This document shows positions 1 through 45,286 of a stretch of 64,000 bases of DNA, one piece after another. Both the position numbers and the translations under genes were made by a program. Under the pieces are notes generated by a model. That model searched no databases, had not been told where the DNA came from, and was given only the letters and a program-made list of their open reading frames with translations. Origin of the DNA: Nemania diffusa (taxonomy: Eukaryota; Ascomycota; Sordariomycetes; Xylariales; Xylariaceae). Every line of letters begins with the position of its first letter. Within the stretch, counting starts at the first letter, position 1. The stretch lies in the NCBI GenBank assembly GCA_038501195.1, contig JBBPUQ010000001.1, positions 5,828,001 through 5,892,000 on the forward strand, in the 5' to 3' direction.

Positions 1-3000
1 TATTTATATAGCGTTAAAATGTTATTAGTTTATTTGTTAATTTAAATAGAAATATTTTAAACTAATAAATTTTATACTTTGTTTAAAAAACTATTAATAA
101 TTTATTTTTTTTAAATATTTAAATATAATAAAATATTTATTAAATGTTTATTTTTGTATAAACTTTAGTTTGAAATATTTTAACTAAAATTTTATTAATT
201 AAAAATAAAAAATATTTATTTTTTTAAATAATTGAATTTAGTTTTTTATAGTTTATATACAGTTATAAAAAACTGTTTCTTTTTTTAGCAAATAAAACTA
301 GTATTGCTTATAATACTATTATAAGTTTAATAAAGTTTTTTGTTAAATTATTACTGATATATTTTTAATATATTTTTGCTTTTTTTAACAATATTTTATA
401 TAGTATGTTATATTTTAAAAAAGTTTTAAAAAGTCTATTAATTATAATATAATAATTAATGTTTAAATAATATAACAAAAAATCGTTTAAAGCTGTTTTA
501 TTAAATATGTTGAAATATTTATAGTATTTTTTTAAAATTATATACAATATTGCTTTTATTAATTTTTTTTTATTTTTTATTAACTTTTTATGCTTTTTTT
601 AAAAAATTATTTAGTTTAGTTTATATAATAAAGTTATATTATATAAAACAGTATTTTTTTATTTTATTGTTATATTAAATCTTGTTGTACTAATAATATT
701 AATTTAAACTAATTAGTGTTTGTATTATTTAATTATATTTTTTTATAATTAATATAAGCTATATTAGTTGTGCTTTATTTTTAGTTTATAGTTTTTATAC
801 TTTTTTGCAAAAAAAATATATAAATTTAAGTTGTTTTTATAAGTTTTAGTTTATAATATGCGCTTTATATGTTATATTTTTTATTATAAATAATTTTTAT
901 TTATATTAAAGCTAGTTCAAAAAAAACAAAAAATTAAAATAAGCAGTTAAAAAGTAGCTAAAAATTCTTTTTATATAACTTTTATTTGTTTTTTTTAATG
1001 CTTAAATTTATTAATATAAAAGCAAACTTTTTTAAGTTTAGTTTTTATATTTTTTTTATTTTACTTTTTTTTTTAATATATTTAACTTATTTGTTTATTT
1101 TTTTTTCTTTTGTTTTTAATATTTATTAACTTTTATTGATAATTTATATTTTGCTAATAATTAAAGTTAACAATTAAGTTTTTTATATTATTTATTAAAA
1201 TTTTAAAAATTTAATATTTTAGTTTTTAATTGCTAAAAAATAGTAATTTTTTTTTTTTACTATTTACTAATATATTATAATAGTTTAAATATTTTTTTTT
1301 TATAATAATGTTATGTTTTATATTTATTATTAATAAAAGTACACTTAAAATTGTTTTGTTTTATATATAAAAATATACTTTTAAAACAGTATCAATAGTT
1401 TATATAGCTTTTTTGTTATAACTTACTATTTAAAATAATATAAATTTAATAATTGTTTTAAGTTTTAAATATTTTAAAATTTTTATAACAAAATTCAATT
1501 TAATTAATAAATATATATTTACTTTTATATTAATTAATACTTTTATTAACAAAGTAAATTTATTATTTACTATTGTATAATTTATAAAAAAAAAGTCTTT
1601 TTTTAATAATTTTTGTAAAAAATCAAATAATATTTTTTTATATTTATTTATATTTAACATTAATATATAAGTCCGTTTAAAATAAAATTTAATTATTTTA
1701 AACTATATTTTTTAGCTTTTTTTTTAGTACAATTTTTACTTATTTAAATTTTATATTTTAAACAAAAATAGTATTAATATAAGTTATATTAAATTGTTTA
1801 AAATTAAACTTATAAAAATATTTACTGCTTTTATGTTTTTAATTATAGCATATAAAATATTAATTTCGCAAAATTAAAACTTTTGTTTAATTAAATAAAA
1901 CTTTAATATAAATGCAATAATTGTTTAAAACTATATTTAAAATAAAAATATTTAAATATTTAGTACTACTTTTTTAATATAAGTTCGATTCTATAGGTTT
2001 TTTTTTTTTTTTAAGCTTTAAATTTTTTTTCTGCTTAGTTGTTTTTAAAAAATCTTTTTTTTGTTACGTTTTTTAAACAATAAAGTTTTTATACTATTAA
2101 TAATTATATATTTAAATATAGTTACAAAAGTTAGTAAATATTACTTAATTATTATATAACTTTTTAATATATAGTTTATTAATTTATTTTAATAACTTAT
2201 TATATAAATCTTTTTTAAAGTTTATAAAATTAATTTAAACTGTTTTAGTTTATTTAATAAACTTTATATTAAATTGTATAAATTTATTAAAGTTTTATAT
2301 TTTGAAGTTTTAATATTTAATTTATACTTTTTTATATTTATTAAAATTATAATAATAAACAAACAAGTAATTTAAAACTTCTGCGCTTATTTTTAAAATA
2401 AGCTTTTTTTTATAATTATTTATAATAAATATTATAATATTTTCAAAAGCAAAACTTTTTATTTAATTAATAATATAATTAATTTTTTTTAAGTTTTAGT
2501 TATAATAATTAGTATTTTTAATTAATTTGTTTTTTAGCAGTATAAATTAATATTTAAACTAAACTTTAATTTTATTTTTAATTAATTTGTTATTAATAAA
2601 TATAAATAAATTAGCTATTTTAACTAATAGCTTAATTTTTTTTTTAGTAATTATAAAAGCTTTATTAATAGTTTTAAATTTTAAAATGTTTTTTTGTTTT
2701 TGTTTTTGTTGCTAAATTATTTCAATAAAAACTAAATTGTTAACAAAAGCTACTAAAACAAACTTTAATATTATAGCTACTATAAATATAATCTAGTTTT
2801 AAAAAACTTCAATTTAATTTTTTAAATTTGTAATCTTTTTTTTATAAATATTTATAACTTTATAAAATGTAACATTTTAAAAGTTAGCTTTTTAATAAAT
2901 TATATCTACTTTTTATTATTTAGTTTTTTTTTTTAACTTGATTATTTAAATATATAAAAAATAAACATTTTATTTAAAAAAATTCATTATATTTTTAAGC

Positions 3001-3862
3001 TTTTTTATAGTTTTTTAAACAATATTTAATTATAAAGTTTAATATTTAAACTTTTAATATATTGTTTTATTATAAAAGTTCGTTATTGCTTAAAATTGCT
3101 TAAAAATTATTAATTTATTATATTTAAACTATACTGTTTTTTTATTTTTAATAAAAAAAACAAAAACTATTTAAAAAGTTCTATTTTAAGCAGCAAAGTA
3201 TTTAGTATTAATTATTATTTTTTTAACTGTACTATTATATATAGTTTTATTAATAACTATATATCGCTATTACTTGTTATATTTTTTAAAGTTTTTACAA
3301 ATAAACTTGAACTTTTTGTAAATATTAAAAATAAAAAATCTTTTATTGTTAAAAATATTGTAATAAAACTTATTATTATTATTTATAATATATTTTACAA
3401 TATAAATACATTTTATATAATTTTCAAACAAGCTTTAAAAGTTTTAAAACTATTAACGCAGCTTACTTCGTTTATAATTTATTTGTACTTAAAAAACAAG
3501 CTTCGCTAGTTTACTTTTAATAAATTAAACTTGTTGTTTAACTTTTTTATAATTAATAATAAATATATTATTACTAAAAGTCGGTTATATTATTTTAATA
3601 TATTAAAATTAATCAATTTGTTCAAAAATTTTTAAAAATTTATCGTTTTTTTAAACAGTTAAAATAAACTTTAGTTTTATAATAAATGTAATATTAGCAA
3701 TAAGTTCAAAAATTAAATAATACTATATATTTTAAAAAAAAAACTAAAGTTAAAAAAACTAAAAAACAAACTTAATTTTTTAAATCAAATCAATATACTT
3801 ATATAAATATTTTTTTATTTACTACTTTTTCTTTTTTATATTTATTACTTTATTTAACTTCT

Positions 3863-3900
3863 AGTAGATTTATTGTTTTAAACAAACAATAAAATCCACT
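3863..3900. repeat. Imperfect inverted repeat in AT block
   Basis: Two arms of about 17-18 bases face each other: AGTAGATTTATTGTTTT and, read on the other strand, AGTGGATTTTATTGTTTG. The core TTATTGTTT is exact. The arms flank a five-base centre. The sequence just to the right (to about 3960) is the most GC-containing stretch of the AT block. It could be the abutting ends of two mobile elements or a hairpin; I see no target-site duplication. Confidence 0.5.
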
Positions 3901-6154
3901 TAGCTACCCTAGCTACTTACTAGCTATACTGCATGCACTAACCATTTTTAAGATTTATCTGTTTAAATATAAGTGTGGTTTATAACAAAAATTATATATA
4001 ATTTATTAATAACTATATAAATAATTAACTTTTAATCAAACAACATTAAAAATTTAAATTAAAAAATTTAATAATAAATAAACAACTTTAATTATAAATT
4101 AACTTTTATATTATTAAATTTAAATTATATAAAATTGTTTATATTTATTAATAAATTATTTATAAATAATATAAATATAATTTTATAGCTTAAATTTATT
4201 ATTATATTAATAATAAAATAATATATAAAAAACAATTTAAGTTTTAAAATTATTAGTAATATTATATATTAAAATTTAAATAAATATAAAAAAATTATTT
4301 ATAATATATTTACAAATAAATTATATAATATAATTAATAGTTTCAATAATATAATCGTTTTATATATAACAATTTAATAAATTTTAATTATATTAAAAAT
4401 TATTTTAATTTTAATAGTTTTATATTTAAATTTAAAATTTTTATATAATTGTTTAATTAAATTCGAAATAATTTAAAAAAAATAATTTATAATTAATATT
4501 ATATTATTTTGCAAATTATATAAAAAAAAAAAACTTTTAAAATATAATAAATAAATAATGTTAATAATTTTATTAATATATTTATAAAACAAAAATTAAA
4601 TTAAATATTTAAAACTTTAATATTTATTAATAAGTTTATTATATAAATTAAAACATTAATAAATAAAATAAAAACAAATATATAATAAAAAAACAACTAT
4701 TATATAAAAACTGCTTTTTTTTTATATAAAAAAATATATATTTGAAACATTATAAAAAATTTATTTTTAATAAACAAGTTTTAATAATATAATAATAATA
4801 TATACAACTTTTTTTATATATTTTAAATTTAATTTTTAGCTAAAGTATATATTTAAAATAAACTATTATAAACAGTATATTTTAAATATAGTTTTTTTTA
4901 TATAGTATTTTATTTTTATATAATATAAAATAACTTTTGTACAAAAGCTGCTTTTTTTTTTATATAAAAAAATATATATTTAAATATTATAAAAAATCTA
5001 CTTTTAATAAATAAGTTTTAATAATATAATAGTAATATATATAATATTTATTATATATTTTAAGTTCGATTTTTAGCTAAAATATATATAGTTTTAAGTT
5101 TATATTAATTATAGATTTAAAGCTATATTGATTTTTTTTTTTTTTTTTTTTTTTTTTGTTATATATATTTAAAACTATTTATATACAACATAGTTTTATT
5201 TTATATTAACAGCTATATATATATATAATATATTTTTATTTTATATTAATAACTATATATATATATAATATATATTTATTATATATTAACTAATATATAT
5301 ATATATAATATATTTTTATTTTAAGTTAATTAATAAATATATATATAATAAACTTTTATATTTAAAAAAAAGTCGAAAAATATATATATATTTAATAATT
5401 TATATATAATATAAAAATATTTTAATATATATATATATAAAAAATATTTATATAGTATATATAAAAAAAATATTATCAAAAAAAACTAAAAAATTAAATT
5501 TGTTATTTTTTAGCTACTGTATAAAAAATAAAGCGAAACTAAATCTTTTTTTTTTTTTTTTTTTTTTTTTTTGTTTTTATAAGTTACATTAAAAATAACA
5601 AACGCTATATAAACGTTAAATATATATATTATATATATTTTTTTAAAAGTTAAAATTTTAATAATATTTAGTAAATAATATACTAATATAGCATTAATAA
5701 CTATTTTAAAAGCTGTTAATATAAAGCAATATAATTAAATTTTAATTTTGAACTAAAAAAGCTTGAAAATATTTTTTTTAATATATAAATTTTATTTAAA
5801 TATTTATAAAAATATTTAAAACTAATATTTAAAAAATAATATTAATAAAAAAAACAATATAAATAATACTTTTTTTAGTTTATTATATAATTAAATATAT
5901 TAGTTAAAAATATATAAAAAAATTTATTTATATAAAAATAAATATATATTTATATAAAATAACTATATAAAAGCTTAATAAGTTTAACTTTTAATTAAAA
6001 CGCTATATATTTTTATTGCGTTATCGTTTTTAGTTTGAACGAAATTTTAAAACTACAACATATTGTTTAAAAAAGCAAGCATAAAGCAAAAACAAGTAAT
6101 AGTTATTATATTACTGCTGCTACTACTATATAAAATATATATATAAATAAATAA

Positions 6155-6165
<11 letters not shown>

Positions 6166-6211
<46 letters not shown>

Positions 6212-6240
6212 ATAAATAAATAAATAAATAAATAAACAAA
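6166..6240. repeat. AT and AAAT microsatellites
   Basis: A run of alternating AT of roughly 48 bases is followed by about six AAAT units. It lies inside the AT isochore. Confidence 0.85.
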
Positions 6241-7477
6241 CGAATATATAAAAAAAAAAACAAAAAAAAAAAAACAAAAATAAATAAAAATTAGCTAAAT
6301 ATTTATATTTAAGATTTTATATTATATAAACTAATATTTTAATTAATATTGTTTATTTTTTTTATATAATATTTAATATTTTTTTTTTTTTATATAATAA
6401 TTATTTATTAAATAAATAAATTAACAAATAACTATTAATTAATTAATTATATAAAGTTTATTAAATTAACTATTAATAATTTATTATAAACTTTATTGCT
6501 ATATAAAAAAGTTATTTTTAATAAATTAATTATAACTAATAATTTAATAAATAATAATTTGCTATTTTAATTAATTAAAAATGTTATATAATATACAAAT
6601 TAAATTAATATAACAAACAATTAAATTATATTATTTATATATAGCTATAAAATAATTGATTTATTATATAATAAAATTAAGCTATTATAAAATATATTGC
6701 TTTTTTATTTTTTATTTTTTTATTTTTATATAATATTTAGTTATAATTAAAAAAAAAAAAAACTAGTATTAAAATATTAATATTAGTTATAACTATATAT
6801 TATAGTTTATATATTATAATATTTATACTATAGTTATATAAATAAATATATAGTTATATAAACAAACATTTATTTTATATACTAGTAGAGATTTTATTTA
6901 TAATAAAATTTTTAACTATATAAAAAAACTTTTTTTAGATTTAATTATTAATATATAAATATAATATAACTAACTTTATATTTTATTTATATATAACTTA
7001 TATATATTATTGTATATATATAGCTTATTTAATAATAATATTAATAAAATTTTTATAAAATATTATTATAATAATTATAAAATATTAATAATATATTAAA
7101 TTTTATTTTATATATATAATATTTATAATTTAAATAAATAAATAAAATAAAATAAATTAATTTAATAAATTAAAATTAAAATAATATAAAATAAATATAA
7201 ATATAAATAAAAAATAAAAAAAAAATATAATTATTATTTATTAATATATTATTAATATATTATAAAATTAGTTTTTTTATTTATTAAAATAGTTAATAAA
7301 AATAAAAATAAAAAAATAAAAATTAACAAAAAAAAAAAAAAAAAATTTATTTATATTATTAAAAAATAATAAAAAATAATATTAATTAAATAATAAAAAT
7401 TAATATAAATAATATAAAATAATAATAATTTTATAAATATTATATTAAAATTAATAAAAATAATTAAATTAAATATA

Positions 7478-7667
7478 AATTTAAACTATTTTAAATTAAT
7501 TTATAAAATTTTATTATTTTAGTTATAAAAATTTATAATAATATTTATAGCTTTTATATTTAATTATTAATTTATTTATAATTTATAAATTAATTTATTA
7601 TATTTATATTTTTTTAATATAAATTTTATTTATTATAATTATAATATTTTAAAATATATTATAAATA
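7478..7667 (+). repeat. RIP-mutated copy of edge duplication
   Basis: This stretch aligns without gaps to 7855-8044 at an offset of 377 bases. From 7483 to about 7666, every difference is C-to-T or G-to-A relative to the outer copy. By hand count about 61 of 65 G or C bases in the outer copy are changed here. The four that survive sit in CpT/ApG contexts. Such one-sided transitions on both strands are the signature of RIP. Confidence 0.88.
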
Positions 7668-7854
7668 AATAATTTTATAAATTTATTAAATTTATTATAT
7701 AACTTTTATATTATAATATATATTTTTTAAAATATAATTATAATAATTATAATATTATTTTTATTTATTTATTTTTTTTATAATTAATAAAAAAAAAAAA
7801 ATTTAATAATTAAAATAATAAATTATATTTTTTAATTTTTTATTTTTTATTTTT

Positions 7855-8044
7855 AATTTAAGCTATTTTAAACTAATTTATAAAGTTTTATTGCTTTAGT
7901 TACAAAAGCTTACTGTAATATTTGTAGCTTTTACGCCTAGCTATCGACTTATTTGCAACTTGTAGATTAGCCTACTACGCTCACGTTCCCCTAATACAAG
8001 TTCTACCTACTGCGATTATAGTGCCCTGGAGTGTGCTGTAGATA
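7855..8044 (+). repeat. Less-mutated copy of edge duplication
   Basis: This is the partner of 7478-7667. It keeps moderate G+C and marks the switch from the AT isochore to normal genomic DNA. Homology ends near 8044, after which the two flanks no longer align. Confidence 0.85.
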
Positions 8045-35980: not shown

Positions 35981-38900
35981 ATGAAAATGAAAATCTGGAT
36001 CCGGAAGTGGTGGCGCAGCAGCAATAGAAGCCGTGGTGAGCAATCTGCAGCTACATCAAATGCTGCCGAGAATCAATCAATTGCCGGCGATGTAAGCGAC
36101 TACGATGAAGACAACGCTAGTCTGAAAGTTTTGTATGATCCTACAGAGAGAAACCTTAGTACAGAAGCCGAGTGAGTTTTAAAATATTACTTCCCCTATC
36201 CCGTACGAGCAGCTCTTTATCTATAAAGTACCACAGCATTTATAATGGAAATCGTCACTACTGATAGAAATGCTTCTAGCATCGTTTTTATTCATGGGCT
36301 CGGCGGCCATCGGGAAGAAACTTGGACAGCCAGAGGGCCAGAAACTGAACGTCCGGTGCTCTGGATTAAAGACTTCCTGCCCGACCACTTACCTCATGCT
36401 CGTATCATAACTTACGGGTATAGCTCCCAAATCGTTAGTGTTAAACATCTCACACAAAGGACGCTATATTCTCAATCCAAAATTCTCTTATCTGCTTTGA
36501 AACGCTTTCGACAAGACGTACGTGCTACAGGCAGACCTATCATCTTCATTGCCCATAGCCTTGGGGGACTTATTGTAAAGAGCGCTCTAATTTACGCAGA
36601 CAAAGATGATCATATTTTCAATGATATCCGCATATGTACAGCTGGTGTGGTATTTTTTGGGACACCACATCAAGGAACCCCTAGCACGTCCTGGACAAAA
36701 CTCGTGAGCGACTTGATTCGCCCGGAGATTGACCTCAACAGAATGCGGAACACTCTGGACTCAGACCTCAACTGGTTGCAATTTCAGCTTGAGCAGTACA
36801 AATCCCTCGACGGCTTTTTCCATACCTGTTGCGTTTACGAGGACGAAACATTCCAGATAAACTCCAGAGTCTCTACGGTAAATTCGTTGAAACGCTAACT
36901 ATCTAGCTTATTCGTGCTAACATTATGTCCCTAGGTCATCCCTCGTGTAGCCGCAATACCTCTAGAACTACTAAATACGACGACCTTGTTGACAGCCGCG
37001 CGCCGACAGTTTCATCAGAATCTGTGCAAATTCCAAAGCCGTGATTCTGAGTATCAGGAAGCTGTACAACACCTTCGCACTATGTATGAGCGGTCTAGAG
37101 ACGTTGTAAGCAGGAATGTCTTCTTAGATCAGCTGCGCCGAGGTGAGTGTGCAGGTCTATTCATCCTAGATAGTATAAGCTGAAGAATTCTGCCGATAAG
37201 ATCCGTTCGTAGCAAATAACGATGGGGATTCTTTTCGCATTCCAGTAAGCCTACCCCAAGATCGTGTAAAACCCTTCCTGGGACGCGATACAGAATTGAG
37301 AGCTATACATGATCGTCTTAGCACCCAACAAAGCAAACGTATAATGACTCTCCTCGGTCCTCCCGGAATTGGGAAAACCCAAATAGCCCTAGAGTATGCA
37401 TACACATATCAAAGTAACTACAGCTCTGTCTTCTGGGTAGACGCTCAAAATCGGTCCGCCCTCCTCTCGTCCATCTTAAAGTTTGCGGAGCAACTGAAGA
37501 ATCAGTATGTCATCACCTCTAGGGGCGAGGAGGAACGACTCACAGCCCTGCACCACCTTAATCTCGGTGGGTTGATTGATGAGGGAGGACAGATACAGTC
37601 GTGTCAGGACTCTCCGGAACTTCTATTCCTAGTACTTAGGAAGTGGCTTGAGCGGCGGGGTAACGATGAGTGGCTGCTTATTGTCGATGGCATGGATCGA
37701 GAAACCGACCTACGAGATTTTCAGATTGACGAGTTCCTCGACTCCCAAATAAACGGACATATAATAATTACCGGTCGATCCCTTAGGCGAGGCCAGACGC
37801 TTAACGTCCAAGCACTTCAGCCATACGATGCCAAAACGCTGCTTTGTCAGACAGCCCGACTAAAAGATACTCCAGACAGTATGATATTCCTGTTCTCGTT
37901 CTCGGTCCACTCATTTAATCGTTTATTCATTCGCCATAGACTATTCTACCTATACAAAAAACGATCAAACTAATATGGCATATGCTTGTAGGCGATATCC
38001 TAGAACTTGCTGACAAGCTCGGAGGAGTACCACTTGCAATCAAACAGGCGGGCGCGTTCCTATTAAGCTCACAGTGGTCTGCCCACAAGTACTCAGAAGT
38101 GCTTTCCTTGGATATTCTACCGGATTTTGGAATAGCTCCTCAGTATTGGTGCTCGCCGCTGCCAAATATGTGGTCAATCTCCATTCAGCAGCTTGACAAG
38201 AAGACGGTAGAGCTCCTCGATATGATTGCGTTCTTATCCAACACCAATATTTCTGTCGAGTTTATAAAAAGCGGCGTTCAAGAACTCTTACATTCCACAC
38301 CTAGAGTTCTCGTAGATGAGAGTTTGACAACGCTGAAAGAATATTCCCTCATCAGATATGATTTGGAGACCCAGACGGTCGCATTGCTATCCTGTATGCC
38401 AGAATGGCTGAGGGAAAGCAAGAAAAATACTCCGGACGACTACAAATTTTGGGCTAGAATAGCTTGCTCATGCGTGTCGTCGTATCTGAAATACGCCGTG
38501 CCAGATGAAAATTCCACAACCTACACTGCCAAGCACTACCAATTAGAGGAACAGCTTCTCCCCTATATAGAGCGATGCGTGGATTACATCCAAGTCCTAT
38601 CTCCGTACGAAGCGGACTGGGGAACTTGGGCCGATATATGCCGACGCCAAGGTCGACACGACCTGGCTAAACAGTACTACGGAATCGTCTTCGGCAACTA
38701 CAAGCAGATGCCCCTGAGGGCCGAGGTAATGTTGCGAGATATGCACGGCATGGAGAGTGCCCTAGGGCCGGCACACATTCGCACTCTAAACTGTGCTGTC
38801 TTGCTCGCATCTCAGTACCAGGAGGAAGACGAGCACGCCAAAGCCGAGATTATTTGGCGGCGGGTCAAATCGTCGCAGTCAAAAAAGTTCGGCGATTTCC

Positions 38901-39367
38901 ATCCCTGGACACTAAAGACGGCGGCAAGGCTAGCTATGGCTCTACAGCAACAGGGGAATTACAGAGAAGCAAAAGCGATATACTCATCAACGTGCAAGGC
39001 TACAGCCACGATACTGGGCAAGGACCATCCTGACAGTCTGAAGCTGATGGCTAATGTTGCAGTATTGTGCACGCTACAGAGGCACTTTGATGAAGCCGAT
39101 CGAGAATATACAAAATTGCTGCGCAAGATGGAGGCGAAACTTGGGCAGGATCACGAAGATGTAAAGAGAATACAAGAATTCAGAATACGGAATAACAAAC
39201 TGAAGCGAACCAAGGCCGAAGGCGCTACTAACGTATGGGTATGTATCTACACCCCATTTACCTCATCTGTCGGCTCGAGCTTATGATTTCTTTAGCAGGC
39301 ACTAGGTACCTCGATGCCTTCAACTAGAAGATGTCGATTGAAGGATTCAATAACATGCTGGTGTTAG
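35981..39367 (+). CDS. NLR: hydrolase head, NB-ARC, TPR
   Basis: A STAND-type receptor of the fungal NLR class. Exons in my model are 35981-36171, 36229-36877, 36935-37142, 37246-37878, 37992-39238 and 39296-39367, giving 999 residues. An ATG at 35855 would add 42. The head is a SesB-like alpha/beta hydrolase with VFIHGLGG (about 84) and nucleophile HSLGG (about 173-177). The NB-ARC has Walker A GPPGIGKT (about 387), Walker B LLIVDGMD (about 493), a sensor-like HIIITGRS (about 521) and GVPLA (about 572). The C-terminus has a few 42-residue TPRs of kinesin-light-chain type (about 780-950). Family knowledge: ligand binding to the repeats drives NTPase oligomerisation and activates the head, in heterokaryon incompatibility or defence. 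No RIP stops are present. The few TPRs suggest a short sensor. The first exon and the last splice (adjacent AG acceptors at 39295 and 39298) are the least sure parts. Confidence 0.87.
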
Positions 39368-40010
39368 CGAAGCGCTCGGAAGGTCTGATGGCCTGCCATC
39401 TTCTGTACGGCCACACTGCGCCTGAACGCATGTCTTGTCTGTCAGGGGCTAACTCAAGGATAGTGAAACGGAACGTATAAATCACGCACACACGCCACAC
39501 TCTATAGGCTTGATCGCTGTCCAAATAGCACTTCTAGAAATTTGTAGCTTCAATCCATCAATAGGTATATTGGAGGACTAGCCGAAGGCTGGTGGCTAGA
39601 AAGGAGGTCTAGCACAGCCACAGGCCTGTGGCTTGGCACGGTGGCTCGGCCACCCGTCCTATCACAATAGGCAGGCTGCGTACAGAGTATAGAGTGACTA
39701 ATAGTTAGTAGCTAAGTAGTAGTATAGGGGCTAAGCGTTGATTCCTGGGTCTTTCCCAATTAGTTGGGAAGAACAAATATAAAAGTTTGCTAGTGAATTG
39801 AGGCAAAGCCTACGAAATATATTACATAATCTTGTTGCGGCCACGATGAGTCAGCAGACCCCTTCGTACCGAGTGGTCAGTCTATATTTCCCTCTCGCGG
39901 CCATCATGTATTTGGCTCTATCAACACCGTAGTTTTTTACCAATTTGATTCATTCCGATAAGTAATACTGTCTACGTTAAGCACACTTCACCGGGAGGAC
40001 CCTCAAACTC
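39368..40010. other. Spacer between NLR and GNAT relic
   Basis: No gene is seen. An ATG at 39846 followed by QQTPSYRV could be the first exon of the dead acetyltransferase, but its splice phase does not fit the next segment. Confidence 0.4.
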
Positions 40011-40766
40011 TACCCCGCAGTTCCCACCGATGCCAGCCGTATCCCCGAGATCTTCATGGAGGCGTTCGCGTCTAACGCTGTGCTGCTTGCTTAATTTCGT
40101 ATACAGGAGGTGCGAGAGAGATTGCGAGATAGTATACGATTGAAGGCGTTAGCAGATATGAAGGATTCCAATATTACCGTGCTTGTCGTCCGGGATACAC
40201 TACCAAATTCCGATGTGTCAGATATAACAAGGGTGAAAGGTAACAGCAGACCCCATCTCGCAGTGAAGGGGATCTTGGGCGGGCCCAATAGTTAAGAAAC
40301 TCCGACCGGAAAATTCGTCGCTTTTGCTAACTAGTCCCACCCCATAGAACATAATGAAGAGGCTGCTTGGATATGGCCTCTAGGGACAAATATGAAGGTC
40401 TTAGAGAGTTGGGGGAGGGCGATAGAAGAGGTGCAAGAACTGGCAGTGGGAGGCTGCCCATGCTATCGTAAGTTCGTTGCGCGACTAAATAAATATCTTG
40501 ATATGATAGAAAAAACTTGCGAGTACTCATGCTAAAAACCTGGTCTCACATTCATGGGCCCCGACCCTCAGTATGAGAGGAGAGGTGCTGCTTCGATGAT
40601 GGTATGCTGGGGATTAGACCAATGCAAGATACACGACGCGCCGGGACATTTAGATAGCACTTTGGAAGCTGGGCCTTTTTACAAGAAAATGGGGTTTGCG
40701 GCTCTCAAGAAAATATCGTTCCAATATTCGGTCGAGGGTCAGAATGAATACGAATTGTACGAATAG
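40011..40766 (+). pseudogene. GNAT acetyltransferase relic
   Basis: One uninterrupted frame reads DASRIPEIFMEAFASNAVLL, then EVRERLRDSIRLKALADMKD, then WIWPLGTNMKVLE, and finally the acetyl-CoA-binding segment PQYERRGAASMMVCWGLDQC and GPFYKKMGFAALKKISF. This matches fungal GNAT-family N-acetyltransferases of the RimI/GCN5-related type. The frame is broken by TAA at 40092, TAA at 40293, TAG at 40332 and a TAA just before the last segment (near 40533). There are no frameshifts. TAA for an expected Gln and TAG for an expected Trp (in FAN-stop-SHP) fit RIP changes CAA-to-TAA and TGG-to-TAG. The last 70 residues remain open (40554-40766). Confidence 0.8.
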
Positions 40767-41045
40767 ATTTCGTTTATATATTGCCCGGATCTAATATAAA
40801 GTATTATAAATAGATATCTATTGAAACGTGACTTGAGTTACCATAAAAGAGGATATAATAGCGCTATTAAATCAAGCATTGCTCTCTCCTGCTCTTTACC
40901 GCCAGAGTACAAACATGAGCATCAGAGTACATAACATAACATCCTTGCGGGAAGGGGTTTGATCATTTATCCTAACAGTATACCTAGGGCCACTGCGATA
41001 CTTCTGTCGCGTAGAGCCCTTATACACCGCTAATTCAATCATGGA

Positions 41046-43078
41046 TTAACGGCGTCGTTTTTCTCTAATGTCAATTTCACAACAATAATGTCGGAGATGA
41101 GCGCAGTTATGACAATGCGTATCGATCTCATAGGACCACGGTCCCTGGTCACATTCACACTAGAAACCACACAGTTAGTTATGATTCATTAGTAGCGAAA
41201 TAGTATACGTTCAAAGGGTGCGACTCACACAATACCATATCCACTCGCCACTGTCTTCTTGTTGCTCTCCACTGCTATGCCGGTTCATTGAATCAATATC
41301 GGCTTCATGTCTAGCACCCTTTTCTTTATTTGTCTCGGATTTTGGGAGCGATTTTGGATATGTATCCAAAGAGGCCTGTCGTGGGTTTAAGATTCCAGTA
41401 ATGGTATTAATGCTGTTATGTAAGCCTGAGCCAATGCGTTCCCGGTAGGTCAGCTGGGTTGGAGAGGTATTAGGCTCGCGATCCTCTTCCATTAAATTTT
41501 TCGAGGCATTGTATAACTTCTCTTCTTCATCCAGGCTCTCGACTTCAGAGTTAGAGCTGGATTTAGGTGACTCTTGACCTTCAAGTTCTTGAACGATACG
41601 TTCCTCTCCTACATCAGATTTCTGGTCCCCACTCTCATCATTGCCGTTGGAAATTCCAGGGAGCGCAAAGAGAGCTAACTGCTCAAGGTGATGGCCTACA
41701 TGTTTAGAGTACTGTGTAGCCGAGCTGATGTCGACTTCACTGCAAAGGGGACAAGGGCCAGGTGCTTTCTTGGGATCTTCTTGGCTACACATTGTTTCAA
41801 ATGCGTCTTGTTGTTCCCGAAGGATTGAATAGTTATAATGAGCTTCTTGTATATGCTGTCGAAACTTGTTACTGGTATCGAACACCTTTTGGCACTCGTA
41901 AGGGCACTGCCAAGCCCTCCAGTGAACCTGCTTCATATGATAAGTCCAATCAGAACGCCGGGAGAACTTATGATCTGGTGTTAAGCAAAGTGGGTTAAGA
42001 CACGTATAAGGTTGCAAGTCTCTAAACACATGCTTTCTGTAAAGTATTAGAATAGTTCCTCGTAATAGATGAACTTGGGTTGCTTACTTCCAGTCGTTTC
42101 TTGAGCTTACTTCGATCATTAGGTAACAGAACGGACATAGAAATGGACCATCTAAGTATTCTTGAGGTATCGGTGGCACTCTTAGCTCCTCTTGATTGTT
42201 TAATGATGGCGCGTAAGATGTCCTAGAATTATCTGATCGAGCATCTAAGTCAATTAACGAATTTTCACCTAGGCTGTCTTTTTGATTTTCGGGTACTGAA
42301 GATGCAATTGTCGTTTGGTCACCATCTTTAGCAGGACTGCCATCGTCGTCTATGCCACCTGAGATTCTAACGTAGTGATCTTCTCTATACTTAAAGAAAT
42401 GGCGGCGGTTTGTCATTGCTCTCCCGAGTCTTTCTGCTAGCTGCAACCCCATACGAGGGAATTTCTCTCGGACATAGCTAATGTCGTACTTCTCATAATA
42501 GCCCAGTGTTTCTGCTCCGGCACGAGACATAAACTGATCATGAGGCGCGGGGTTTCTAATCGTAATAGAAAGACGGAGCAGGCAGTCGATCACATGGCTA
42601 ATGTCGGCTAGGGCGAGGTCGAGACTGGACTGGCTTGATTCCCCATCATCCTTCAAGTACTCCATCAACTCGAGATCTAGGGCGTCAGGGGCTTCATCTG
42701 CGGAGCCTATGGGATCGCTCGATGCTGACAATGCTGTATTAAATCAATTTGAGAAACACTCTCTTATATGAAGCGCCGACATTATCACATACCATCTCCA
42801 ACGGCTTCTTCAAGTTGAGTAAGTAGCTTGATAACGTGTTCCCGGATTGTTGATGCGTCGCGTAGCCGGTAGTCTAAAGACCTACGCCCAGTTTCTCGAT
42901 GAGCGCCAAGGCTCCCAACCCATAACTTGAATCTCGCAAGCTGAGATGCTGCCTTTGAGCAACGTACTTCATCTGGTGCTAGATCAGAAGTAAGGCCTTT
43001 CAGTGAACCAAGATTCTTGGTTACTAAGGTTACAGTTTGGTGGGATCTAAACGTGGTTTTGCCGGCTTGCGTCGCCAT
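41046..43078 (-). CDS. C2H2 zinc-finger protein, NLR-island type
   Basis: Exons on the minus strand are 42793-43078, 42088-42733, 41229-42036 and 41046-41159, giving 617 residues. The N-terminal third is a helical domain with ARFKLWVGSLGAHR and SLDYRLRDASTIREHVIKLL, typical of a large fungal family. Then come acidic linkers and SIRNPAPHDQFM. Zinc-binding parts follow: FLCPFC (about 295-298), C2H2 fingers near 323-349 and 355-377, and CPLC followed by HVGHHLEQLALFALP. The short last exon adds a Cys/His-rich tail (CECDQGPWSYEIDTHCHNC...HYCCEID), which may be a further zinc knuckle. The proteins are abundant beside fungal NLR and HeLo genes; their function is not established. It is divergent from the HeLo gene, with 256 bases between the ATGs. 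The start was taken as the first ATG that leaves the conserved N-terminus whole. Confidence 0.9.
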
Positions 43079-43246
43079 GTTTTTAGCTCGTCCGAAGTCG
43101 TAGTGAAGAAGCAACTTGATGCAATTATAAACTTTTACACCTTTGCCGTCGTATAGATAGCTAGGTAACTTTGCAATACCTACATCTGTGTCAATATTTC
43201 CCCGCAGTAGGCCTTACTATATTAATGCAGCTGAATATTGTAACAA

Positions 43247-43252
43247 CACGTG
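43247..43252. promoter_or_regulatory. E-box CACGTG in shared promoter
   Basis: A CACGTG palindrome sits in the 256-bp divergent promoter between the zinc-finger gene and the HeLo gene. It is the known core site for bHLH factors. A single six-base match may be chance. Confidence 0.3.
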
Positions 43253-43334
43253 ACACTCATCGATATTACAGACGACTGCGGGGTTGGGTAGATACATATT
43301 CGTATCCCTTCAAACCCTTCTCTCAAGTTAATTC

Positions 43335-45286
43335 ATGTCGGGGCTGGAGATTGCTGGCCTTGTCCTTGGGGCACTCCCCTTGGCAATTCAAGCTGTGCAG
43401 GGCTATAGAGAAGCCCTGCATACCAAGCATACCAAGCATGCGAAACGATATCTCGATTCCATAGAGCGGGACTTACAAACAGAGCAGCTCCGGCTTCAGA
43501 ATACCTGCGAAACACTGTTAGTTGGGATTGCGTCGCATTTAGATATTCAATCGATGATCGAAGATCCGTTTGGAGCCGGGTGGAAGTCCTACGCAGATAA
43601 GTTGGTATGTCATGATAACTGCCTTATTTTCAAGTCCTTGCTTCCTACACTATTCATTCATAAACCTGACCTTCTTGTAGTAAGTATTTGCATTATTCTA
43701 TCCGTTCACGATCTAAGAACGGGGACTGCATGCTTATACTTGCCAGGCGTTTGAGGTTATACACATCATACGATGCATTCGACGAATGCATAAAGACGAT
43801 GTATATGGCAATAAAAGAAGTTAAATCGAAACTTGGTATTGAAGGGGAGAGCTGGGTATGTCAACATTAACCCTTGGAGAGATAAAGAAACTTATGCCCC
43901 CCCTAGATCAACTCGCGGGACCGACAGTCAATACTTGAAACTCTCAAGAAAAGACCCTCATTTATATTTAAGAGGAAGGAGTTCGAAGGCATTATATCGA
44001 GCATAAAAGCCAGCAACGATACTCTCCAGGATCTTTCCAGGGGAAACCGTGGACTAGAGCCAGACCGACGTCGACGATCTCAATCGCGCGTGACAAATCT
44101 TTTCCGTGGGCTTTCCCAAAGCATCTATAATGCATTGTGTAGCGCGATAACGTGTACATGTATGTATCCCCATAGTGTTGGGCTTCAGCTTCCTTGCGAG
44201 AGTATTGTCATACTGCCAAACGACATAGAAGAAGAGATAGCCCGGAAGTTTGTGTTCCCCATTACCTTGAAGGTGGCCGACAAAAAGAAAGCCTTGCATA
44301 TCCAGCATAGTAGCGAGGTGCAGGCGGTATGTAGCTGGAGGAAGTTTCAAATGCGGCTTATAGTTGATGATAAAGCTCCCCCAAGTCTGGCGACATTCTC
44401 TTTATCGGCCTCACCTTCGCCCGGCAAGAAAATTGGGTGGGCGCCATCAATCATTAATGTGCCAAAACTGCCCCAAAGCCCTGAATTACAGCTGCCCGCA
44501 AAGGGTCTAGAATTGCCACCGTCAAGAGTATCAGATCTGTGCAGTGCTGGTCGAAGGGGACTCAAGACCAAAGCCGTGAACTGCTATGGATACCTTCTTG
44601 ACACTCAGCGCAAATTTATATTGTCACCCCCTGATGACGACACTGGCCTTAACAACCACGTAACACTTCGCCAGGTCATTGAGGGGGATTCTTTGGGTCT
44701 TCCACCATTCGGATTCGAAGAGCGGCTGCGAGTGGCACTCGCCCTGTCTATTAATTTTCTTCATTTGAACGGGACGCCATGGCTACCACAGACTGTGGCA
44801 CTGGATGATATCGCATTCATGGTCGAGAACGAGGATACAATGATCCAACCTTCTCATTTGCTCTACCGGCCGTTCGTCATAAAGGTTATTCCTCTCACAC
44901 CTGAACTCCGGGTCGGCACTCCTCAAACTACACATCCGTTGACAACCTCGCCGTCGCAGACGGTTCGCCTAGTGAGGCCTACCAATGTCGAAGCCTTTTC
45001 TCTCGGTACTCTTCTCATCCAGATTATTGTTGGGCGTGTGGAAGATGAACTCAGCATGACAGGCACTATGGATCCCGGTTCAATCGCGTCACGGCGAAGA
45101 AAGGGCAGCAAGCTAGAGGGAGAAATACTAGAAAATGGAGGCATGAACTATGCGGCGGCCGTAAAGTGGTGTCTTGATAGCGCTTACCGTGTCGCTAGCT
45201 TGCAGAACGAAAAGTTATGTCAGGAATTCTATGAGGCAGTTATTGCCCGATTGGAAGATGATCTTGAAACAATAACGTCAGGTTGA
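43335..45286 (+). CDS. HeLo-domain plus DUF7580 protein
   Basis: Exons are 43335-43603, 43747-43855 and 43907-45286, giving 585 residues. The N-terminus MSGLEIAGLVLGALPLAIQA and the following amphipathic helices (residues 1-130) match the HeLo/HeLo-like family, whose HET-S member inserts into membranes and kills cells. From about 320 to the end, CYGYLLDTQRKFILSPP, ALALSINFLHLNGTPWLP and NVEAFSLGTLLIQII match DUF7580, a kinase-like fold. I see no HRD or DFG motif, so it is likely a pseudokinase. The middle is a basic, probably coiled linker. The first intron is best explained as a twin intron (separate entry). The divergent partner is the zinc-finger gene, and an NLR lies 4 kb away. I infer a role in regulated cell death or allorecognition. 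Confidence 0.87.
43604..43746 (+). other. Candidate spliceosomal twin intron (stwintron)
   Basis: The internal intron is 43605-43680, with donor GTATGT, branch CTGAC and acceptor CTTCTTGTAG. It splits the donor of an outer intron after its first G. Once the inner one is removed, G at 43604 joins TAAGT at 43681 and forms a perfect GTAAGT donor; the outer acceptor is TTGCCAG at 43746. The result reads SYADKLRLRLYTSYDAF, in frame and as expected for the family. This is the known [D1,2] type of stwintron. Confidence 0.7.

Follow-up and report, generated by a model that had tools for sequence, protein, structure and literature searches.

Whether a zinc-finger gene and a gene for a HeLo-like, DUF7580-containing protein that stand head to head act together, and if so in what capacity, is the question raised by a locus of the wood-inhabiting ascomycete Nemania diffusa (assembly GCA_038501195.1, 55.6 Mb in 16 contigs). 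The locus lies in a stretch of 64,000 nucleotides, positions 5,828,001 to 5,892,000 of contig JBBPUQ010000001.1, here referred to as the window. An earlier note on this DNA had grouped the two genes with a nearby NOD-like receptor (NLR) gene into an immune island of sensor, adaptor, and executor. The present analysis finds that the pair recurs, mostly with no NLR recognised in the frames scanned, and that it probably forms a two-gene regulated-cell-death module in which the zinc-finger protein is the sensor and its partner the executor.

Two-gene death clusters have been published for fungi, as excerpts of PMC10197012 document, and so have HeLo and Goodbye bundles (PMC9815663, in part). HeLo executors with NLR partners, as well as HeLo-like domains on kinase or pseudokinase proteins, are described in sections of PMC12881547. 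No paper on DUF7580 was found among open-licence articles, and none on a zinc-finger/DUF7580 pair among titles, abstracts, and open-licence articles, preprints lying outside both searches.

The gene pair and its recurrence

The proposed sensor gene (41046..43078, minus strand) encodes a C2H2 zinc-finger protein of 617 amino acids (aa) in four exons (42793-43078, 42088-42733, 41229-42036, and 41046-41159), according to a splice model, family matches, and a match to the core profile. In the splice model, its 3' end extends beyond what the open frames suggest. The start codons of the two gene models are separated by 256 bp (43079..43334), a short, AT-rich stretch with a composite repeat-induced point mutation (RIP) index of +0.40 that is proposed to be a bidirectional promoter. 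Both the C2H2 gene and the 256-bp stretch common to the two genes had been put forward before and are upheld here. The proposed executor gene (43335..45286, plus strand; exons 43335-43604, 43748-43855, and 43907-45286) encodes 585 aa and matches a Nemania diffusa protein of equal length at 91% over the whole query. Its first intron (43605..43747, plus strand) is nested: the acceptor of the outer intron is split by an inner GT-AG intron (43680-43746), whose removal restores it with the frame kept. Such an arrangement is termed a stwintron. Read in this way, the gene yields the 585 aa that equal the length of the N. diffusa protein.

Genome searches with the DUF7580 profile (PF24476) and with two zinc-finger exons returned 15, 7, and 17 places, respectively. 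The open frames of 20 stretches were then searched with profiles built for the zinc-finger core and for either end, N- and C-terminal, of the executor; since the initial searches were candidate-limited, all counts are lower bounds. Both families occur together at at least 13 loci (L009-L017, L021, L022, L027, and the window), 12 of which are among the 15 PF24476 places, L027 being the thirteenth. All 13 pairs are oriented head to head, and 13 of the 16 DUF7580 loci possess such a zinc-finger partner. Under a simple random model, the chance of this pairing is P ~5e-31 for proximity and 1.5e-8 for orientation. Nine partners carry the HeLo-like N-terminus (L011, L012, L015, L016, L017, L021, L022, L027, and the window), and extrapolated start codons in pairs of this type lie 263-449 bp apart; in three pairs, DUF7580 has an S8 (subtilisin) peptidase behind it, and the L009 partner was assigned to neither group. 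No zinc finger was found in the stretch read at DUF7580 loci L018, L019, and L020, and no DUF7580 at zinc-finger loci L023-L026, the match at L026 sitting inside a frame of 1114 aa. The zinc-finger cores of the 13 paralogues have diverged widely (identity 26% median, 47% maximum), and paralogue distances show a weak correlation between the two families (Mantel r 0.32, p 0.022). L021 and L017 hold the cores most closely related to that of the window. The L021 pair (G000:C1:5895000-5904900) is a second head-to-head pair that lies ~24 kb downstream, just outside the window.

The pair is also conserved across several genera. Homologues were found for the executor (38) and for the zinc-finger protein (270), and partner counts come from the 120 zinc-finger homologues that were listed. 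Among the matches listed, for 15 of the 38 executor homologues (P0002, P0004-P0009, P0011-P0014, P0021, P0022, P0024, and P0031) the organism also has a zinc-finger homologue on an equally long contig; the other 23 have no partner among these matches, which implies neither presence nor absence. In four of the 15, the two partners carry consecutive locus numbers: Xylaria hypoxylon (g7668/g7669), Nemania sp. NC0429 (444251/444252), Xylariaceae sp. FL0255 (361185/361186), and Cladobotryum mycophilum (12437/12436). This cross-species linkage rests on equal contig size and locus numbers, from which orientation is not visible. The earlier note had named a lack of recurrence as grounds for abandoning its module; the divergent pair recurs at least 13 times in this genome, with homologues elsewhere.

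Two side observations concern the listed proteins. In P0037 of Diaporthe amygdali, DUF7580 is followed by a C-terminal GNAT domain, reflecting either a true fusion or merged gene models. P0039 (84%) and P0160 (98%), both under the name Hypoxylon argillaceum, come nearest to this genome among the listed members of two families, unlike the executor, which is closest to Nemania diffusa; some label or classification may call for review.

Core and tail of the zinc-finger protein

The zinc-finger protein consists of a helical N-domain and a C2H2 cluster, which together form the core, and a C-terminal tail. Both parts of the core are modelled confidently in the homologue P0046, and its tail lies mostly below 50 in the predicted local distance difference test (pLDDT). 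When the window protein and 21 homologues were compared by BLAST, none of the 462 ordered core pairs was without a hit, whereas 290 of the 420 ordered pairs of the 21 tails longer than 30 aa were hitless; the window core end was set too far downstream in this comparison, so that only 57 aa were counted as its tail. The N-domain resembles structures of the Rx coiled coil (CC), the MLKL four-helix bundle (4HB), and HET-s, but within the range reached by helical bundles, and profile comparison gave no signal between it and either HeLo or the executor N-domain.

Tail domains recognised by Pfam share an open frame with part of the core at L012 (Ank), L015 (Zn2Cys6), L016 (two SH3), L017 (KH), and L022 (TPR), and lie in following frames at L013 (TPR) and L014 (kinase). 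The tails are not all distinct, TPR being found at both L013 and L022. At L009 (4184-8622), one frame combines a stretch with a SesB-type hydrolase motif and the C2H2 cluster, and hydrolase and NACHT-type frames follow; an NLR has apparently been grafted onto the zinc-finger core there. In other fungi, listed homologues include MIT, Myb, Ecl1, and ubiquitin-like domains, and accessions among the listed zinc-finger homologues cover BAG, LIM, homeobox, PHD, CCCH, SH3, and Zn2Cys6. Because the tail is the changing part and carries host-like domains in paralogues, the zinc-finger protein is more likely a sensor than the adaptor that the earlier note had made of it.

Tails as copies of host genes

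Six of the eight tails that were searched against the genome have a relative at another locus. The L016 tail (5401-5838) contains two tandem SH3 domains that match the C-terminal SH3 of a Sho1-like gene at 69% and 66%. At L017, the third KH domain of a gene with three KH domains is found (80% over 46 residues, 61% over 36), together with linker residues ahead of the domain. The L015 tail (5280-6059) carries two tandem Zn2Cys6 copies that match one host gene at 57% and 52%, and a weaker glutamine-rich match to another. Further matches were obtained for the tails of L021 (one gene at 72% over 54 residues, a second at 56% over 75) and L010 (58% and 50% to one gene). The weakest case is the L014 tail kinase, whose best match among 27 other kinase places reaches 41% over 287 residues. 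This kinase (L014:7082-7906) has RPGD in its catalytic loop where the best host relative has RHGD, and may be inactive for that reason. The core identities given above (26% median, 47% maximum) serve as a yardstick for these values. The L011 and window tails match only themselves in the genome, so that no captured domain was found in the window sensor. Parts of these host genes turn up in further homologues as well: P0040 of N. abortiva has the L034 segment (85% over 94 aa), and the L033 segment is present in P0137 (70%), P0064 (48%), and P0152 (33%).

Two of the copies lack host introns. In L017:5201-5473, a 114-nt intron of the host gene at L029 is absent exactly at its ends, and in L010:4401-5195, the intron that separates the two matched segments of the host gene at L037 is absent as well. 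These two segments fit the capture of spliced RNA, as in retrocopies, the alternative being later intron loss; the precision of both losses points towards RNA-mediated capture.

The nature of the tails also bears on a different account, namely that the zinc-finger protein is a transcription factor controlling its divergent neighbour, and that the tails stem from the usual shuffling of domains within a large family of regulators. The C2H2 cluster, the DNA-binding character of some tails (Zn2Cys6 in L015, and Myb), and the short shared promoter would all suit such a regulator. Tails of SH3, KH, TPR, Ank, kinase, MIT, and SesB hydrolase type are ill-suited to DNA binding, and the copies stay close to particular host genes, which makes this account unlikely.

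The proposed executor protein

DUF7580 is well recognised in the window executor (PF24476, 1.1e-9; 38.8 bits against a curated cut-off of 27), and 35 of 36 executor homologues match it at E <= 1. For the N-terminus, the picture is different from the HeLo domain that had been announced. The Pfam HeLo family (PF14479) has matches at three places in the genome, none of them in the window executor, and one of the 36 homologues matches it (E 0.15). The Pfam label was given up for want of a match above cut-off, and remote profile similarity takes its place: the executor N-terminus aligns collinearly with HeLo over 166 columns from the N-terminus (P 4.6e-4), at a score reached by none of 400 shuffles and an HH-suite probability of only 33%. 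Judged by profile comparison, the N-terminus is a remote relative of HeLo, belonging to the HeLo superfamily in a wide sense. With regard to a possible membrane-inserting helix at the N-terminus, the 19-mer of highest hydrophobicity begins at residue 3 of the window executor, and in 15 of 27 homologues it begins no later than residue 10. Of the HeLo plus DUF7580 architecture in the earlier note, the DUF7580 part stands as it was, and the HeLo part stands in this weaker form.

Kinases account for 48 of the 50 best VIA rows obtained for DUF7580. Among the 36 executor homologues, catalytic motifs are nearly absent (HRD-like in one, DFG-like in none), and none matches a Pfam kinase. DUF7580 is predicted to be a kinase-like fold without catalytic motifs, and the proposed order, in which a helical bundle precedes a kinase-like domain lacking such motifs, is in line with prediction. 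No MLKL or HET-s row occurs among the 50 VIA rows shown for the executor; because kinases fill these rows, the N-terminus is barely tested by them. Foldseek returned no match at E <= 1e-3 for either the executor or the zinc-finger model.

A proposed sensor and executor module

The linkage of the two genes, the constant core set against a changing tail, the host origin of several tails, and the HeLo-related and kinase-like parts of the partner are brought together in the following scheme. Both genes would be co-expressed from the short shared promoter, and the zinc-finger core would dock on DUF7580 and keep the partner inactive. The tail would act as bait, imitating host regulators that are attacked by foreign factors, such as mycoparasite effectors, viral proteins, or an unlike fusion partner. 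Once the bait is contacted or changed, DUF7580 would be released; it might then free the HeLo bundle, with permeabilisation of the plasma membrane as the outcome, or switch on a protease.

A wider proposal is put forward more tentatively. Ascomycetes may have independently evolved a plant-like but NLR-free head-to-head pair of sensor and executor with integrated decoys, the C-terminal slot of its zinc-finger-core sensor being refilled by host copies derived from spliced mRNA (e.g., Sho1-type SH3). The DUF7580 pseudokinase would signal to an interchangeable HeLo bundle or subtilisin, and the sensor N-domain may be of the 4HB or CC type. If true, the captured domains name the host processes that are attacked by fungal enemies (among them Sho1-type signalling, a Zn2Cys6 factor, and a KH RNA-binding protein), and the targets of fungal immune receptors become open to direct tests.

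A killer-like partner in tight head-to-head linkage, in copies that are dispersed and diverged, is also what could be expected of a poison-antidote or incompatibility locus. HeLo-DUF7580 would then kill and the zinc finger would be its antidote or allelic antagonist, with no outside sensing. Such a locus leaves the tails copied from host regulators unexplained, and the pair is conserved in several genera rather than sporadic. This possibility is accordingly given little weight, and a module that senses through its tail is preferred.

The neighbouring NLR and other features of the window

Upstream of the pair, an NLR gene (36245..39286, plus strand) encodes 937 aa. Its four-exon model has no internal stop, and Pfam recognises a DUF676 hydrolase (1.2e-5), NB-ARC (3e-7), and TPR_12 (5.3e-16), in agreement with the SesB-hydrolase NLR described earlier; the start at 35981 given for it then found no in-frame join in the single splice model tried. 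Between the NLR and the pair lies a broken GNAT acetyltransferase remnant (~39846..40766, plus strand), identified from frames and from Pfam searches of its pieces, one of three of which has a hit to GNAT families that falls short of the curated cut-off (2.6e-4). The gene had been called RIP-killed. It is indeed broken, and RIP as the cause of its death is unsupported by the composite RIP index, which is -0.29, similar to the -0.34 of positions 8500-35000. A link between the remnant and the GNAT/DUF7580 protein P0037 found no support, as BLAST gave no match.

Pfam found no NLR family in 10 further large neighbour frames within the ~10 kb read at seven pair loci. One of these frames, near the L022 pair, is a HET-domain gene (L022:468-2822, 4e-31). 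Neither NB-ARC nor NACHT occurs in the partners of the window pair or in the scanned frames of the other pairs, except behind the fused gene of L009. With the 10 large neighbour frames devoid of NLR families, the window NLR is best viewed as a separate gene, that is, as an independent, intact receptor rather than a regular pair member. The module of NLR sensor, zinc-finger adaptor, and HeLo executor, to which the presence of all genes within 10 kb and the NLR parts fused to the core at L009 had lent appeal, is very improbable, given that, in what was scanned, L009 alone among the 12 other pairs showed NLR parts and the 10 large neighbour frames showed none, and that a broken gene stands between the NLR and the pair.

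At the start of the window, positions 1-8000 form an AT-rich block (9% G+C, composite RIP index +0.65) with a sharp boundary near 8000, possibly a RIP-hit repeat or a centromere-like stretch.

Comparison with known systems

Among plant NLR pairs, integrated decoys are found in RRS1/RPS4, RGA5/RGA4, and Pik-1/Pik-2. The decoy concept is treated in passages of PMC12258605. The fungal pair resembles such pairs in its head-to-head arrangement, its short, putatively shared promoter, the host-derived domains on one partner at several loci, though not in the window copy, and the executor-like nature of the other. It differs in that neither partner is an NLR, for which reason the pair falls outside the plant paired-receptor family: the sensor core is a helical domain with a C2H2 cluster, and the partner is HeLo-like/DUF7580 or DUF7580/S8.

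With MLKL and with the fungal HeLo-like kinase and pseudokinase proteins treated in parts of PMC12881547, the executor would share an N-terminal helical bundle and a kinase-like domain predicted to be catalytically dead. Unlike MLKL, the 36 executor homologues have no Pfam kinase match, a zinc-finger partner is linked, and no RIPK3-like activator is known. The HET-S/NWD2 and HELLP/PNT1 clusters similarly place a HeLo-type executor beside a presumed controller (portions of PMC12881547 and PMC10197012); here, the controller is not an NLR, and no amyloid motif was seen, though none was sought. Fungal gasdermin/protease clusters (PMC10197012, as excerpted) recall the S8 peptidase behind DUF7580, whereas the linked partner here is a zinc-finger gene. 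The putative integrated decoys of Sordariales NLRs are likewise domains of host origin, kinases among them, that sit C-terminally on a presumed receptor, which in that case is an NLR, according to passages of PMC12258605. The same passages report that head-to-head NLR pairs are rare in Sordariales and conclude that convergence on the head-to-head layout of plants has not taken place among fungal NLRs. If the reading proposed here is true, fungi did converge on this design, using other proteins.

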